Shown piece after piece: positions 995 through 63,818 of a DNA stretch of 64,000 nt (the stretch's first letter is position 1; each line of letters starts with the position of its first letter). The notes beneath the pieces are model-generated. The model was given only the letters and a program-made list of their open reading frames with translations, searched no databases and was not told the DNA's origin. The translations under genes were made by a program, and so were the position numbers. This stretch comes from Microcella sp. (GTDB lineage Bacteria; Actinomycetota; Actinomycetes; Actinomycetales; Microbacteriaceae), in the NCBI RefSeq assembly GCF_019739195.1, contig NZ_JAHHDS010000003.1, positions 620,001 to 684,000 on the forward strand, written 5' to 3'.

Positions 995-1076
995 GCGGGA
1001 GTGGTGAAATTGGCAGACACGCAGGATTTAGGTTCCTGTGCCTTCGGGCGTGAGGGTTCAAGTCCCTCCTTCCGCA
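995..1076 (+). tRNA. tRNA-Leu (UAG anticodon)
   Basis: A seven-pair acceptor stem (GCGGGAG with CTTCCGC, one G-U pair) closes the gene. The anticodon stem CAGGA/TCCTG (1022-1026 and 1034-1038) presents TAG at 1029-1031. A long variable arm around TGCCTTCGGGCG marks a class II tRNA, and the T loop GGTTCAAGTCC follows. CCA is not encoded. The 3' end is repeated imperfectly at 5401-5425, which suggests the gene served as an integration site. Confidence 0.95.
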
Positions 1077-1080
1077 CTGG
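1056..1080 (+). repeat. attL-like direct repeat at tRNA-Leu 3' end
   Basis: These 25 bases cover the T-arm and 3' acceptor of tRNA-Leu. They match 5401-5425 at 22 of 25 positions in the same orientation, including an unbroken 13-base stretch over CCCTCCTTCCGC. A tRNA 3' end duplicated on the far side of AT-richer DNA is the classic footprint of site-specific integration. Confidence 0.7.
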
Positions 1081-5336: not shown

Positions 5337-5679
5337 CGACAACCTGCACAAATGCAGGGTTCTAAGCCTTTTCCGCCACTGCTGAGCGGCGCTGGGGAGA
5401 GTTCAGATCCCTCCTTCCGCTCTGGAGCCCTCCTCGAGGTTCCTCATGATGAGCCCAGACAAGGTCCGTATCAGACTTCGCGTACTCGCGACAACGTCGA
5501 CCGAAGTGGCCAGATAGCATGCGCAGACGTCGAAGGGTCCCGGGCTCGAAGTCCTCGGCTCGCGTCGGCCTGAAATCTCCTGATGCCCCTGATGCCCGTT
5601 TCCACGCTCGAGTTCATGTTGCGAGAGAAGTCTTGTGTGCCGCGACTCGAGGCTGAATCAGGTCTGGGATGATTCGTCA
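5337..5679. other. Intergenic stretch containing the distal att-like repeat
   Basis: No gene is recognised here. It holds a small palindrome CTGCA-CAAA-TGCAG at 5344-5357 just upstream of the minus-strand gene, and the imperfect copy of the tRNA-Leu 3' end at 5401-5425. A short ORF from 5447 (MMSPDKVRIRLRV...) ends after about two dozen codons and matches nothing I know. Confidence 0.5.
5401..5425 (+). repeat. attR-like copy of tRNA-Leu 3' end
   Basis: This copy agrees with 1056-1080 at 22 of 25 positions, in the same orientation. It cannot be a tRNA, as no acceptor, D or anticodon arms precede it. It marks the probable distal end of an island of about 4.35 kb. Confidence 0.65.
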
Positions 5680-58438: not shown

Positions 58439-59029
58439 GTGACACGCATCATCTCCGGGTTCGCGGGCTCGCTGACGCTCAAGGTGCCGAGCGCTGGCAC
58501 GCGCCCCACGAGTGACCGCGTGCGCGAGGCGCTCTTCAGCGCGCTCGAGGCCCGCGACGCGATCGCCGGAGCACGCGTGCTCGACCTTTACGCCGGCTCG
58601 GGAGCCCTCGCGCTCGAAGCCATCAGCCGCGGGGCCGCCTCGGCCGTGCTCGTCGAGAAGTCGTACTCGGCGGTGCAGGTGTGCAAGGCCAACGCCGCGC
58701 TCGTGAGTGGTCGGGCGGGGCGCGGCGAGAGGCCGAGCATCCGCATCATCGGCAAGCCCGCGACCTCGTACCTGTCGTCGGCGCTCGACCAGTTTGATCT
58801 CGTCTTCATCGACCCGCCGTACGAGGTGGTCGGGCTCGAGCTCGACCACGTACTCGAGGGGCTCGTGCCGCGATTGGCGACGGATGCGGTGATCGCGCTC
58901 GAGCGCTCGTCACGCACCCCGGTGCCCGCCTGGCCCGCTGGACTCGCGCTCGACAAGATGTCGCGGTACGGCGAGACGGCGATCTACTGGCTGGAGCCAG
59001 AATCCGATAGATGGAGAGAAGTCCCTTAG
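58439..59029 (+). CDS. rsmD: 16S rRNA (guanine966-N2)-methyltransferase
   Basis: The 196-residue methyltransferase has SGFAGSLTLKVP, TRPTSDRVREALFSAL, the SAM motif VLDLYAGSGALALEAISRGA and the catalytic VFIDPPYEV. The final part SRYGETAIYWLEP is followed here by ESDRWREVP and a stop. A second copy of SRYGET-V-IYWLEP with a different ending (TGS, stop) lies 2.36 kb downstream, so an insertion has replaced the last codons while keeping the enzyme intact. Confidence 0.94.
   Translation: MTRIISGFAGSLTLKVPSAGTRPTSDRVREALFSALEARDAIAGARVLDLYAGSGALALEAISRGAASAVLVEKSYSAVQVCKANAALVSGRAGRGERPSIRIIGKPATSYLSSALDQFDLVFIDPPYEVVGLELDHVLEGLVPRLATDAVIALERSSRTPVPAWPAGLALDKMSRYGETAIYWLEPESDRWREVP
58967..58998 (+). 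repeat. attL-like repeat at rsmD 3' end
   Basis: These 32 bases of rsmD match 61326-61357 at 29 positions in the same orientation, with an unbroken 17-base core (58982-58998). They mark the left edge of an insertion at the rsmD 3' end. Confidence 0.75.
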
Positions 59030-59264
59030 AGCGCAAGCTTCGTTCACCGATTGCTCCACGCCACACCTCACCCTGCCTGCTTGCGATCGAACTTGGGTTG
59101 GCCGCCGCCGAGTTCCACTAGGCCCGGTAGCCAGTGCCGTAGGCAAAGGACACAAGACCAAGAGCACTCTTGTGCTTCGGATCCCACCAACGAAGTAAAG
59201 GTTCGCCGCTCCTTGCTTCAGATTGGTTCGAGCGGGGCGTTGGTAGAGCCTGCAAAGAAGACCT

Positions 59265-61052
59265 CTACGAAGGTGGGTCCTTGCGAAGTCTCCAGATTGG
59301 CCACCCCTGCATCTCACTCAATTCGTCTGGTGTGAGTTGACCCGCCAAGAAAGCCACCTCCTCCTCTTCTCCAAGAAGCAGGGCGCAGGCCAAGAGGAGC
59401 TTCCGCGGAGAGATCTCTGAATCGTCTTTGATGCTCTTTCGGAAGGCGCGCACCTCGTTGCGTTCCGGAGCCGAAAGACCGCCCTTACGCCATTTCATCT
59501 GCCAAGAATTCAGTAGATGCTGTGGTTTCTGTCCCTCAGAAGCAATGAGCCAGTTGTTCAGCGCGATTGCCGCTTCGAGCAGTTCCTCCGCTCGCGCCTC
59601 GTGCGTATCAGCCGCCGCGATCAAGGCGAGCACACGAAGATTTGCCTGACCGAATGTCGAAGAATAGTCCGACAGCGCTTCATAGGCTCCGACGATCGAG
59701 CGCAGGTTCGCATTCAGAACTGTGCCAAGTTGATCGGGTTCCACCATGTCGTACGCAGTTACTGGAATGACCTGACGAACTCCCTCATCGATATAGCTCA
59801 TCCTGTATTGCTGGCGAGTCAGATCATTGAACGGGTCGACCATTCGCCATCTCCCCGGCTTGCTCCCGGGAACGACCAAGAACATGAGCCCCCAGTCCCC
59901 CACCTTCTGAAGCACACGAGAAGTCTCGAGCTCTGGATCGGATATCTCCTCACCGTGAACGAAGGCCCGTCGAAGCACGCTCAGTTGCCTCGAAAGCTTG
60001 TCGTCGATTGCTTGGATGTCGATAAACCGCGTGTCCACATTCAGCAAGTCGAAAAGCTCACGGAGTTCTCTAAGCGCACTAAGGTGCGTGATCAACTCCG
60101 CGTCTGAGTCACCTTCCGCCATTACGAATTGCTGCTCAACACCGTCAATGCTGATTGCCCGAGTGGCGAGCAACGCGGCGTAAAACTCAAGGCCCTTCAG
60201 GCGGTCCGCAAGGGAGCGCTCCAGCGTGAACGAGAAACTCATCGAGTGTTGATCGCCAGAAGCTCGAAAGACGATGCTCAGACCAGCTGCAAGTTCAATC
60301 TCAACTGAACCGTCGGCCGTTTGAACTGCTGTCCCGCCCTTGTACGCCATATCTCCACTTCTGAACTCCACGGCGATCGGACGCTTCGTAAAGGCCAGCG
60401 GCGTGACTTGAAAGACCCCCGACAAGGGAACCTCGAGCCCATCCTCAGTGGTGAGCACAAGCGCAAAATCGGCAGAGCCAGGGGAGAGAGTTACTGGCAC
60501 AGCGAAGTCGATCTCTGTTGCTGTGTGGATGGTCAAGCTCTTCATCCGCTCGAAGAGAACCGCATCGAATCCTTGAGAGATGCGCTGCTCCCGTGTCTTC
60601 AGAGCTAACGCGAAGATGGGCTGGATCTCCGATGGCGACGTGGGGAACAGCTTCAGGCCAACCGTTATGTTTTTGGTCGTTGGCGACGACCGGGCAAAGT
60701 GGTCCTCGATGGCGAACGGTGACAGCAGGGCGCAATACGTGGTACTCGCACCGGAGTCTTCGACCAACACCACGAAGTAGAGCACGCCGGAGTTTTTCTG
60801 GTACGCCTTCAGATCAGTGCGCTTGATCGAAAACGTTATCGACGTCCGCTCGTTTGCCTTTACTGACCGACCCTTTACTTGAACGTCCACCCTGCCCAAC
60901 CATTGCTCTTTGGACTGCTTCAGGCCGGAGTAGAGGTCGACGTGACCATCAGTGAAGGGGGTCTTGTCGTTCAGCGAAATGTAGGGCTTTAGGGCGGTGC
61001 AAGTGGCCACGAGCCGACTGACCTCAGCAACGGCGATCGCCTCGACATCCAC
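59265..61052 (-). CDS. DUF4365-like N-terminal nuclease-fold protein, large single island cargo
   Basis: The 595-residue protein starts at GTG 61052 behind CAGAAT. Its N-terminal ~150 residues resemble DUF4365, a PD-(D/E)xK-like nuclease domain: Asp39 in DGHVDLYSG and Gln58/Lys60 in GRVDVQVKGR, then SIKRTDLKAYQKNSGVLYFV. The rest, ~440 residues, is not recognised: a beta-rich middle and a helical C-terminus. Codon use is less GC-rich than in neighbours. It is the only gene of the rsmD insert. DUF4365 proteins often occur in defence loci, so a one-gene anti-phage system is a reasonable guess, not shown. Confidence 0.6.
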   Translation of the reverse strand: MDVEAIAVAEVSRLVATCTALKPYISLNDKTPFTDGHVDLYSGLKQSKEQWLGRVDVQVKGRSVKANERTSITFSIKRTDLKAYQKNSGVLYFVVLVEDSGASTTYCALLSPFAIEDHFARSSPTTKNITVGLKLFPTSPSEIQPIFALALKTREQRISQGFDAVLFERMKSLTIHTATEIDFAVPVTLSPGSADFALVLTTEDGLEVPLSGVFQVTPLAFTKRPIAVEFRSGDMAYKGGTAVQTADGSVEIELAAGLSIVFRASGDQHSMSFSFTLERSLADRLKGLEFYAALLATRAISIDGVEQQFVMAEGDSDAELITHLSALRELRELFDLLNVDTRFIDIQAIDDKLSRQLSVLRRAFVHGEEISDPELETSRVLQKVGDWGLMFLVVPGSKPGRWRMVDPFNDLTRQQYRMSYIDEGVRQVIPVTAYDMVEPDQLGTVLNANLRSIVGAYEALSDYSSTFGQANLRVLALIAAADTHEARAEELLEAAIALNNWLIASEGQKPQHLLNSWQMKWRKGGLSAPERNEVRAFRKSIKDDSEISPRKLLLACALLLGEEEEVAFLAGQLTPDELSEMQGWPIWRLRKDPPS

Positions 61053-61280
61053 CGTTTCATTCTGGCAGTCGGACCCGACAGAATCAGGTTTTGGAAGGAG
61101 CTCCCCGCCTACGGTGACCGCTCAACGTGTCAGCAGGCACCATTGGGATCGCCGAGGGCCATAGGTGCAGGACCGGTTAGTTGAGCCCAAGCTCTGGCGC
61201 GCTCCCCGCCCAAGTGCGCCAATCGGAACCGAGGGGAGCTAGAACTCGCCGGTGTGGTCGAAATCCGCGGGCGGCATTTG

Positions 61281-61370
61281 CCGCACGGTGCTGTGGTCGG
61301 GTTCGAGCTCGCCAATACATCTCGCTACGGCGAAACGGTCATCTACTGGCTGGAGCCGACCGGCAGCTGA
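61281..61370 (+). pseudogene. Displaced ancestral 3' end of rsmD
   Basis: Read in frame, this encodes VVGFELANTSRYGETVIYWL, then EPTGS and a TGA at 61368-61370. It lines up with the end of RsmD (LALDKMSRYGETAIYWLEP). It has no start of its own. The ancestral rsmD stop would have lain 6 bp from the RelE toxin gene, a natural convergent spacing. Confidence 0.7.
61326..61357 (+). repeat. attR-like repeat, copy of rsmD 3' end
   Basis: This copy is 29/32 identical to 58967-58998 and in the same orientation, and forms the right edge of the insertion of about 2.36 kb. Confidence 0.75.
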
Positions 61371-61376
61371 CACGGG

Positions 61377-61634
61377 TCAGCGGTCGTACACTTCGCGGCG
61401 ATGGCCAAGCGTCACGACGACGATGAGCAGCACTCCGTCGTCGATCGTGTAGATGATGCGATAGTCGCCGACGCGCACGCGCCAGGCGGGTCGCCCGCGC
61501 AAGGGTTTCGCGGCCGGCGGCCGAGGGTCGTCGCCGAGTAGGGCGATCACCCCGCGGATGCGCTCGCGATCTCGGTGGTCGATCTTCTTGAGGGCTCGAA
61601 TGGCGGCCGGCCGCAGTTCAATTCGGTAGCTCAC
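61377..61634 (-). CDS. RelE/ParE-family toxin
   Basis: The 85-residue protein has the RelE fold pattern: YRIELRPAAIRALKKIDHRD, then PLRGRPAWRVRVGDYRIIYTI and a C-terminal VVTLGHRREVYDR. RelE enzymes cut mRNA on the ribosome. It overlaps the antitoxin gene by 4 bp and follows it. Confidence 0.93.
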   Translation of the reverse strand: MSYRIELRPAAIRALKKIDHRDRERIRGVIALLGDDPRPPAAKPLRGRPAWRVRVGDYRIIYTIDDGVLLIVVVTLGHRREVYDR

Positions 61635-61879
61635 GCCCAGCCCAGGTCGGCCTTCGCTTGCGCCCAGGGGATGTTCGGCCCCTCCTCTTCCATCGCCGCG
61701 TCGAACGCGGCAACGTCGTCGACTTCGTCGAGCGCGTCAAGCATGCGCTCATACTGCTCGGGGCTGATGACGACCGCAGCACGTTGTCCGCGGCGCTCGA
61801 TGAACACCGCTTCGGTCTGCGAACGGTCGATGACCTCGGAGAACTGCTTGCGGGCGTCGGCGACGCTGAGGGGATTCAT
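61631..61879 (-). CDS. Phd/YefM-family antitoxin
   Basis: The 82-residue protein begins MNPLSVADARKQFSEVIDRS and continues FIERRGQRAAVVISPEQYER, the DNA-binding and dimer part of Phd/YefM antitoxins. The C-terminus (NIPWAQAKADLGWA) is the likely toxin-binding tail. The ATG at 61879 has TACAAT 6 nt upstream. Two TGTACA boxes in the promoter suggest autoregulation. Confidence 0.92.
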   Translation of the reverse strand: MNPLSVADARKQFSEVIDRSQTEAVFIERRGQRAAVVISPEQYERMLDALDEVDDVAAFDAAMEEEGPNIPWAQAKADLGWA

Positions 61880-61885
61880 GTGCCT

Positions 61886-61914
61886 ATTGTACAACCGACT
61901 CATGCAGATGTACA
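61886..61914. promoter_or_regulatory. Antitoxin promoter with paired TGTACA operators
   Basis: TGTACA occurs at 61888-61893, overlapping the minus-strand -10 box TACAAT (61886-61891), and again at 61909-61914, 21 bp (two helical turns) away. TGTACA is the known core of the YefM operator in E. coli. Confidence 0.65.
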
Positions 61915-61932
61915 TCAAAGTGGGTGTGACGG

Positions 61933-62715
61933 TCACTTCCGCTGGGAGCGCGAGTTCCGATCGTTGCGCAGCTCCACCAACAAGACCGATGCCCGCCATT
62001 CGACGGTTGCTGTAATCAATTCGCGCAATGTTGCACCGACGAGAGCCCACTGATCCGGGGTTGCGTCGTGTAGGTCGTTGCGCACGTCGAACGGGTACTG
62101 CGGGCTGAGCAATGAGTCTGCCGTCGCACTCGGAATTGGCGTCGTCGAGATCTCGGCGCGGACAACGTGCATCCCGGCCCTCGCGGAGATCTCGCGCCAC
62201 TTCTCGACAGTGGACGTCGCCGCGTTCGGATCCTCAACAATCAGACCGTGCTGATGGGCGGCGCGTCGAGTCAGCGTCGGGCCGGTCAGTCCGTCGGTCA
62301 CGAAGGCGGAAACAACAATGCGCCCATCGTCGGCGAGTACTCGGCGCCACTCGCGGACAGCCGCGTCGGGACTTCCTATGTAGGGCATCGCTGAAACGCA
62401 GGTGATCACGTTGAACTCCCCCGACTCGAAGGGCAGATCATGTGCACTCGCCTGGAGGAAGCGCACACCTGGCAAAGCAGTACGTGCAACTTTCAACATG
62501 GCCAAGGAAACGTCGATGCCTGTCAGGTGAGCAGCGGGCAGCGTCTGCAGGCTGCGCAAGACAAGTCCCGTGCCCGTCGCAACATCCAGCACGGTCTCGA
62601 TGCTTGTCGGAGCGGCGAACCGCGCGGCGGCGTCCGCAACGGAAGCGTGAAAGGAGCCTTGGTCGTAGGTGGAGGCACGGCGGTCAAACTCTCGTTCAAC
62701 CCATCCGACGTCCAC
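61933..62715 (-). CDS. SAM-dependent class I methyltransferase
   Basis: The 260-residue protein has ERFDRRAS-like EREFDRRASTYDQGS, the SAM loop VLDVATGTGLVLRSL, LTGIDVSLAMLKVART and LPFESGEFNVITCVSAMPYI. This is the Methyltransf_11/ubiE-like layout; substrate unknown. GTG start 62715, with TAACCT 6 nt upstream. Confidence 0.88.
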   Translation of the reverse strand: MDVGWVEREFDRRASTYDQGSFHASVADAAARFAAPTSIETVLDVATGTGLVLRSLQTLPAAHLTGIDVSLAMLKVARTALPGVRFLQASAHDLPFESGEFNVITCVSAMPYIGSPDAAVREWRRVLADDGRIVVSAFVTDGLTGPTLTRRAAHQHGLIVEDPNAATSTVEKWREISARAGMHVVRAEISTTPIPSATADSLLSPQYPFDVRNDLHDATPDQWALVGATLRELITATVEWRASVLLVELRNDRNSRSQRK

Positions 62716-62721
62716 GACGAA

Positions 62722-62727
62722 AGGTTA
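62722..62727 (-). promoter_or_regulatory. Leaderless -10 box of methyltransferase gene
   Basis: TAACCT on the minus strand ends 6 nt before the GTG at 62715. Confidence 0.4.
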
Positions 62728-62765
62728 GCGGTCAAGCCGACCTTGTCCCGAGGTCGTCAACCTGG

Positions 62766-63818
62766 TCAGCCAGTCTGCCCGCTCCACTCCGCGAACGGGT
62801 CCCAGCCGCCGCGCTCGTCGAACACCCGGCCGTCGACGAGCAACGCGGGCCCGTGACGATCGGCAGCGACCACCCGGCCGATGACACGAAAGCCGCCCGG
62901 CAGCGCGTCGAGCGGCGGCGCGACGTCGGGCGGGAAGGTCGCCAGCAGCGAGTGGTCTTCTCCCCCGGTGAGCGCGAGCGACGCCGGGGCTGCGGGGTCG
63001 AGGCCATGCGCGAGCGCGACCTCGCGCACCTGCTCGCTCGAGAGGTCGAGGTTGACGCCGCTCGCGCGAGCGATGCGGCGCGCGTCGAGGGCCAGCCCGT
63101 CGCTGAGGTCGAGCATCGACGAGGCTCCGCCGAGGGCGGCGGCCACGCCGTCCGCGATCGGCGGGTGCGGCGTGAGCTGGGCGGCGAGCGGCACGGGATG
63201 CTCGGCGCGCAGCCGAGCTGCGGCATCAGCATCCGGAGCCCCCGTCGCATCGACCCCGTGCTCGAAGAGGATCCGCAGCCCCTCGGCAGCGAGCCCCAGC
63301 GGGCCGGAGACCGCGACCCAGTCGCCCGGCCGCGCGCCCGAGCGTGTCACGGGGTCACGGTCGTCGAGGTCGCCGAACGCCGTGACGGCGATAGTCAGCA
63401 CGCTCGACACACTCAAGTCGCCGCCGACGACTCCGCAGCCGGGCGCGAGCGCCTCGCACGCATCGCGAAGCCCCTCGGCGAGCGCCTCGAGCTCGGCGAC
63501 CGGCGTCTCGGCGGGGGCGGCGAGCGCCACGACGAGCGCTGTGGGGCGGGCGCCCATCGCCGCGACATCGCTGAGGTTGGTCGCCGCAGCCTTGAAGCCG
63601 AGATCGTGCATCGTCGACCACGCCGTGCGGAAGTCGGGGCCATGAATCATCATGTCGGTCGTGATCACGACTCGGCGGTCGGGTGCGGCGAGCACGGCGG
63701 CGTCGTCACCCGGGCCGAGCAGCGTCGACTCGCTCTCGGGCAGCAGCGGGATGATGCGCGCGAGCGCCGCGAGCTCGCCAACTGATGCGAGGGTGTCGGG
63801 ATTCTGGGCGTGGCTCAC
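62766..63818 (-). CDS. thiL: Thiamine-monophosphate kinase
   Basis: The 350-residue enzyme makes thiamine diphosphate. The ATP/Mg region LLGPGDDAAVLAAPDRR, the Asp-rich VVITTDMMIHGPDFRTAW, VVGGDLSVSS and LDLSDGLALDARRI are typical. It starts at GTG 63818, with TACCGT 6 nt upstream, divergent from the gene at the window edge. Confidence 0.94.
   Translation of the reverse strand: MSHAQNPDTLASVGELAALARIIPLLPESESTLLGPGDDAAVLAAPDRRVVITTDMMIHGPDFRTAWSTMHDLGFKAAATNLSDVAAMGARPTALVVALAAPAETPVAELEALAEGLRDACEALAPGCGVVGGDLSVSSVLTIAVTAFGDLDDRDPVTRSGARPGDWVAVSGPLGLAAEGLRILFEHGVDATGAPDADAAARLRAEHPVPLAAQLTPHPPIADGVAAALGGASSMLDLSDGLALDARRIARASGVNLDLSSEQVREVALAHGLDPAAPASLALTGGEDHSLLATFPPDVAPPLDALPGGFRVIGRVVAADRHGPALLVDGRVFDERGGWDPFAEWSGQTG

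Follow-up and report, generated by a model that had tools for sequence, protein, structure and literature searches.

The locus

We analysed a 64,000-nucleotide stretch of the genome of Microcella sp. (GCF_019739195.1; contig NZ_JAHHDS010000003.1, positions 620,001–684,000, forward strand), hereafter the window, in which the 3' end of the housekeeping gene rsmD occurs twice. The full-length gene (58439–59029, + strand; PF03602, E 2.8e-42) encodes an RsmD-like 16S rRNA methyltransferase with the C-terminus ...IYWLEPESDRWREVP. A second copy of its tip, with its own stop codon (61297–61370, + strand), was recognized by profile, repeat, tail and placement comparisons. The two copies are separated by about 2.2 kb of DNA with a lower guanine-plus-cytosine content (56–64%, against 67.7% for the window) and one long minus-strand gene. 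This insert (59009–61234, both ends approximate) has no match in the other 25 of 25 genomes of the genus. Its gene (59265–61052, minus strand) encodes a DUF4365-like protein of 595 amino acids. An earlier, sequence-only reading had proposed that a site-specific element entered the end of rsmD and supplied a replacement C-terminus. As discussed below, the insertion stands, but the site-specific element and the supplied C-terminus do not agree well with a tail like that of the closest relative, the lack of an integrase and the failure to find recurrent use of the site.

The genus sample comprised 26 genomes including that of the window, several of them just 71–86% complete. Sixteen of the 25 congeners, those with the rsmD nearest to the window's, were read in detail (RsmD protein identity 87–94% to 12 of them and 73–75% to four); individual congeners are denoted by handles such as G005.

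Duplicated end of rsmD

The tip of rsmD recurs as a direct repeat. Positions 58967–58998 match 61326–61357 at 29 of 32 positions, with an exact 17-bp core (58982–58998 and 61341–61357). The sequence-only reading had these coordinates and counts exactly right, and the match extends even further: the proximal copy at 58944–58998 (+ strand) and the distal one at 61303–61357 are identical at 45 of 55 positions (82%), with a more decayed stretch to the left. This repeat lies far above chance; the runner-up ungapped match for the same 55 bp, over the whole window and both strands, reaches 33/55, and a profile built from 13 rsmD genes matches 61297–61359 with an E-value of 8.9e-11. By eye, a possible palindrome surrounds the core; it plays no part in the arguments below.

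The decayed stretch, 61235–61299 (+ strand), aligns without gaps and on the same strand to rsmD positions 393–457, with about 42 bp missing before the tip. It agrees with the window's own rsmD at 39 of 65 positions and with those of 12 congeners at 40–44 of 65. Taken by itself, the profile score is weak (2.5 bits): it exceeds all 200 shuffles, yet 2 of 241 control pieces of the window reach it. At the protein level its match to rsmD is not significant (−1.7 bits). We nevertheless judge that it is probably rsmD because of its fixed place in the gene. With the offset fixed at 393, 39/65 is reached at just 3 of 127870 window positions, which include 61235–61299 and rsmD itself. The best match in the 12 congeners falls at offset 393 in nine and at 405, 408 and 429 in three, offsets that we take to be the same place in a longer rsmD. 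This alignment makes it probable that the distal copy preserves, in decayed form, more of the rsmD end than the tip, with about 42 bp lost.

The distal reading frame, open from 61185, closes with FELANTSRYGETVIYWLEPTGS (EPTGS stop), its stop codon lying at 61368–61370. The in-frame TGS stop, and the stop of the convergent toxin gene relE 6 bp further on (starting at 61377), are as the sequence-only reading described them. Beyond GAGCC, the two tails have no correspondence. A 44-amino-acid minus-strand frame that overlaps the rsmD relic (61239–61373, ending in DHSTVRQMPPADFDHTGEF) was considered as a gene and is probably not one; no relative was found for it, its last 25 amino acids having no match at E 0.01 in 397 other genomes of the family and none in plasmids.

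Insertion and empty sites in congeners

Searches of the 26 genus genomes with the DUF4365-like gene (E 1e-5) and with both non-coding flanks of the insert (E 0.01) gave matches in one genome only, the window's own. To the right of the insert lie a RelE/ParE-type toxin gene, relE (61377–61634, minus strand; PF05016, E 1.1e-12), and a Phd/YefM antitoxin gene, phd (61631–61879, minus strand; PF02604, E 6.9e-14). The relE-phd pair follows rsmD in 5 of the 16 congeners, with 12 bp (G021), 0 bp (G016), 12 bp (G025) or 11 bp (G024) between the stops of rsmD and relE; in G020 the spacing is about 95 bp plus an assembly gap. Next come a gene for an S-adenosylmethionine-dependent methyltransferase (61933–62715, minus strand; PF08241, E 1.3e-21), found in the same place in G016 only of the 16 congeners (72% identity), and a gene that we take to be thiL (62766–63818, minus strand), named from general knowledge and not by family search, which forms the conserved right-hand flank. 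The G016 order rsmD, relE, phd, methyltransferase, thiL is the order of the window without the insert.

The sequence-only reading predicted that an empty site would read IYWLEPTGS stop about 6 bp from the relE stop. G009 comes close to this: its rsmD ends in YWLERTAS stop, followed after 6 bp by a remnant of relE (20/28 matches to the relE of G016, a value reached by none of 20000 shuffles against five relE ends). An insertion between rsmD and relE is well supported, and this DNA has the marks of acquired DNA: an empty site in relatives, a different composition and a patchy distribution.

The interval between rsmD and thiL (window 59029–62766; loci L032–L047) varies within the genus and holds, besides relE-phd, other contents or almost nothing. 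It is almost empty in G005, G017 and G022. G007 and G009 have similar gene pairs there, one gene of which resembles a sigma factor by eye. In G015 and G024, thiL was not reached or not fully matched. Long hairpin-like sequences, noted by eye, follow the rsmD stop in G012 and G011 (L038, L040; GTGTGAAGACG...TTCACACAAGAG in G012), and another such sequence follows rsmD in G020; these may be terminators that serve convergent genes.

Which copy is resident

The left flank of the locus is nearest to G005, at 90.4–92.6% identity. Three successive stretches up to 58998 are 92.4, 92.6 and 92.1% identical, and the 7.1-kb match with G005 extends to 59005, 7 bp beyond the core. From 56.9 kb on, the left flank was scanned for a recombination break close to rsmD, and none was seen.

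The proximal tail (58997–59014, + strand; PES-D-R-W) can be aligned with the PEPTD-stop tail of G005. At the nucleotide level, CCAGAATCC and, after a gap, GATAGATGG align in frame with CCAGAACCCACTGATTGAGGG, with one codon less (score 9, reached by 6 of 1000 shuffles). G005 was one of 13 tails tried, and the other 12 gave shuffle fractions of 0.137 or worse. Where G005 has its TGA stop, the window's rsmD has AGA, and RWREVP follows. Because the proximal tail aligns in frame with that of G005, this comparison suggests that the end of the full-length rsmD is the inherited one, apart from an altered stop. The sequence-only reading was correct that rsmD ends in ...PESDRWREVP. Its claim that the last codons were rewritten may hold for the last six (RWREVP), read into the insert. 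The PES-D part resembles the tail of G005. Among the other rsmD endings compared, none reads ESDRWREVP, so the observation that the sequence-only reading named as its own refutation, this ending in relatives without the DUF4365-like gene, was not made. The C-terminal tails of rsmD differ widely among congeners and genera; therefore a changed tail needs no special mechanism and has no evident function.

The distal copy points elsewhere. Together with the first bases of relE, its tail aligns best with G009 (score 17, reached by none of 1000 shuffles), followed by G007 and G012 (score 12 each; 3 and 4 of 1000 shuffles). When the distal piece was searched against the family by blastn, G009 ranked first after the window's own genome, at 76% over 82 bp. 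Against G007 the 57-bp distal tip shows 10 mismatches, against the window's own rsmD 12, and against the other 11 between 13 and 19. Maximum-likelihood placement of this tip gave the G007 branch an expected likelihood weight of 0.69 and the window's branch, the second best, 0.09; G007 and G009 are sisters. In its upstream part the relic comes closest to G021 (44/65) and G007 (43/65), and the window's own rsmD scores the lowest of 13. The differences in the tip fall mostly at third codon positions (7/12 against the proximal copy, 7/10 against G007), as between coding alleles. The EPTGS ending, which the sequence-only reading took as the original one, thus resembles another branch of the genus (the tail best with G009, the tip with G007, with other placements not rejected). 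From these comparisons we infer which copy is resident, and probably two rsmD alleles were brought together by recombination.

Identity to G005 is 84.0–88.5% in the right flank and returns to 91.6% beyond 69.3 kb. The drop, from about 92% to 84–88% over about 6 kb (62776 to 69138, past the right-hand end of the window; L166) followed by recovery, is a sign of recombination in the window's genome or in G005. It showed no clear rise towards G020 and was not used as evidence for the events at rsmD.

Tests for a site-specific element

Neither the insert nor its surroundings yielded a recombinase, in agreement with the sequence-only reading. The window's genome has two proteins with PF00589 matches, one on contig C2 and one at C3:2381704, both far from the insert, and most of the genus has PF00589 matches with similar scores. 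One of the two, on inspection, shows the SAM-like and catalytic domains typical of Xer proteins; we class both, provisionally, as Xer-like. The serine recombinase families PF07508 and PF00239 have no matches in this genome.

If the site were in recurrent use, other rsmD genes should be followed by repeats of their own ends. We collected 55 rsmD loci, dropped two distant ones and one that ends inside rsmD (L107), and tested the remaining 52. In no case did the downstream sequence (up to 10 kb) contain a repeat of the locus's own tip at 33/45 or better, against 36 for the window; at seven of these loci less than 6 kb of downstream sequence was available, and some are genus genomes already in the sample. 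The tip pattern had no matches in viral contigs, and the 17-bp core occurs there in three stretches, which we take to be chance. A literature search for rsmD as an integrase integration site gave a sole match, on CsrA-family proteins; a search combining rsmD, 16S rRNA methyltransferase and genomic island insertion found nothing.

Separately, 13 nucleotides near the 3' end of a tRNA-Leu gene (window 995–1077), TCCCTCCTTCCGC, recur at 5408–5420, with nothing longer repeated; a possible explanation is that they are the attachment (att) pair of another small insert. A more general proposal is that one-gene cassettes that lack an integrase use the rsmD 3' end as an attachment site, are moved in trans, for instance by Xer or some helper element, bring a gene-restoring end with them and insert at tRNA-Leu here as well. 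We regard this as quite improbable.

The DUF4365-like gene

The 595-amino-acid protein matches DUF4365 (PF14280) below the Pfam cut-off (20.9 against 24.3 bits; E 3.9e-4), and its C-terminal part matched nothing in Pfam. Residues D35, D39, Q58 and K60 are invariant in all eight aligned DUF4365-like proteins, the window's included. We take this N-terminal pattern (D-x3-D...QVKG) to be the motif of a PD-(D/E)XK-type nuclease.

Relatives of the gene were found in eight further genomes of the 398 of the family. At seven of these loci we read the flanks: a tRNA-Pro gene in three and a tRNA-Ser gene in one lie 0.2 to about 5 kb from the gene, three loci have no tRNA gene, and none holds rsmD. In L057, L058 and L059 the gene lies 0.2 to about 5 kb from tRNA-Pro, and one of these has an integrase beside the tRNA. 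Because four of the seven loci have a tRNA gene at most about 5 kb away, one of these four has an integrase and none of the seven has rsmD, the genomic contexts indicate that the DUF4365-like gene is mobile cargo not tied to the rsmD site. The protein has no relative in our genome_contigs or viral_contigs sets; two phage records and seven plasmid records contain relatives, all below 60% identity, and four of the plasmid records cover at least 80% of the protein. The best PADLOC match has an E-value of 0.035, and NCBIfam gave none at E 0.1.

A defence role of the putative nuclease is likely. PMC10810196 describes a DUF4365 nuclease domain associated with short Argonautes. The window's protein resembles it in a weak Pfam match and in the D...D...QxK pattern conserved in eight of eight aligned relatives. 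It differs from those short-Argonaute systems in that no Argonaute partner was seen; the insert has one long gene, shorter frames not having been searched.

Interpretation

The explanation that we favour, tentatively, is that about 2.2 kb of foreign DNA with one DUF4365-nuclease-like gene became attached at the very end of the resident rsmD, beside the decayed remains of another rsmD allele's end, through recombination with congener DNA. Homology would have guided this recombination on both sides, or on one side with illegitimate joining at the other, and it would not have been site-specific. The full-length rsmD would be the resident gene; its own PE-x-D tail would have lost the stop codon where the insert begins on the left, and translation would now continue for a few codons into inserted DNA. 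The relic at 61235–61370 would be an rsmD end from another branch of the genus, followed by relE-phd; having arrived together with the cargo or earlier, it would later have decayed and shed about 42 bp. The insertion, the duplicated gene end, the absence of recombinase candidates beyond the Xer-like proteins and the resemblance of the tails are observed; the route, the residency of the full-length copy and any joint arrival of relic and DUF4365-like gene we infer. That the repeat, with its decayed upstream part, is longer than a usual core supports this account.

Several observations weigh against this account. With a tip of only 57 bp, a position next to the window's rsmD is not rejected (approximately unbiased (AU) test, 0.35), and neither are positions at some inner branches or at G009, G015, G017, G020 and G021; IQ-TREE moreover gave a warning of too few replicates for this test. 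The distal tail beats most shuffles not only with G009 but also with G007 (3/1000), G012 (4), G011 (32) and G005 (34), so that G009 is its best match and not its only one. The resemblance between the proximal tail and that of G005 covers 18 bp and is 1 of 13 comparisons; the shuffle fractions with G021, G022, G025, G016 and G024 are 0.14–0.50. The 17-bp core ending in GAGCC is common to both copies and occurs in none of the 16 congeners, which is easier to explain by a crossover at the core than by two unrelated alleles. The relE-phd pair carries no clear foreign signal (86.4–89.8% identity to G021, G016, G025 and G020), and the congener sample is small.

A direct repeat with an exact 17-bp core at both ends could also have been left by site-specific integration of a small element that had no integrase, recombined at a core in the rsmD 3' end and used a recombinase acting in trans or since lost. 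Its att site would have restored the end of rsmD as ESDRWREVP and pushed EPTGS next to relE. The near match to the predicted empty site in G009, the presence of relE after rsmD in 5 of the 16 congeners, and the cargo relatives near tRNA genes, one with an integrase, all agree with such an event, and a long displaced gene end would also suit a case like that of prophage e14. We consider it somewhat unlikely. It has to contend with a locus without an integrase in a genome with two Xer-like PF00589 proteins and no PF07508 or PF00239 match, with 52 testable rsmD loci none of which repeats its tip, and with the absence of the tip pattern from viral contigs. The homology is graded, at about 80% in the tip and about 60% to its left, and the tail that would have to come from the element resembles that of the closest relative, G005.

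The direction of events could also be reversed. The resident arrangement would then have been rsmD (ending in EPTGS) with relE-phd, and incoming congener DNA with a whole rsmD end and the DUF4365-like gene would have recombined within rsmD and been joined illegitimately inside the resident gene, without any recombinase, leaving the last part of that gene as the relic. The position of relE 6 bp after the distal tail, a relE-phd divergence about that of the clade, a tip for which placement beside the window's rsmD is not rejected and a relic of about 136 bp with a deletion agree with this. We consider it unlikely: the resemblance to G005 holds along the left flank from 49 kb to 59.0 kb without a visible fall in identity, which gives no hint that the full-length rsmD was imported locally, and the distal tip and tail point to other congeners. 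We regard it as highly improbable that the insert was captured at a break that duplicated the window's own rsmD end, the distal copy then drifting free of selection. Such drift would suit the 12 tip differences, of which 7 are GC to AT and 3 the reverse (counted by eye), and the window's own branch is the second-best placement of the tip. It would not produce the excess of third-position differences, nor an upstream part less like the own rsmD (39/65) than like that of any of the 12 congeners, nor tails that fail to correspond past GAGCC.

Recombination with congener DNA, the explanation we favour, would make this a single clear case in which a probable defence nuclease entered a chromosome as cargo without its own recombinase, with a second gene end as the footprint. 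If such footprints were common at the ends of housekeeping genes, they would trace a spread of small cargo by recombination that integrase-bearing islands do not explain. As it stands this is one case with an ordinary explanation, and it looks like gene acquisition by recombination, a fresh example of a known process and not a new kind of mobile element.

Comparison with known systems

Some integrating elements, among them prophage e14 in the E. coli gene icd, rebuild the 3' end of the protein gene that they enter. The rsmD locus resembles e14 in the diverged second copy of the gene 3' end at the far side of the insert and in the altered C-terminus. It differs in having no integrase in or near the insert, a single long cargo gene and no recurrent occupation of the site that we could find.

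In Vibrio type VI secretion system (T6SS) arrays, stepwise replacement reportedly leaves relics behind. The rsmD locus combines a housekeeping gene with a single cargo gene and has no effector–immunity pair in the insert, unlike the T6SS effector and immunity arrays whose displaced relics are described in PMC5361080. Homology-facilitated illegitimate recombination has been described for small linear DNA molecules (PMC3240628). The rsmD case differs in being read from sequence alone, but this process, homologous at one end and illegitimate at the other, would yield what lies at the locus: an intact gene, new DNA and a leftover gene end.

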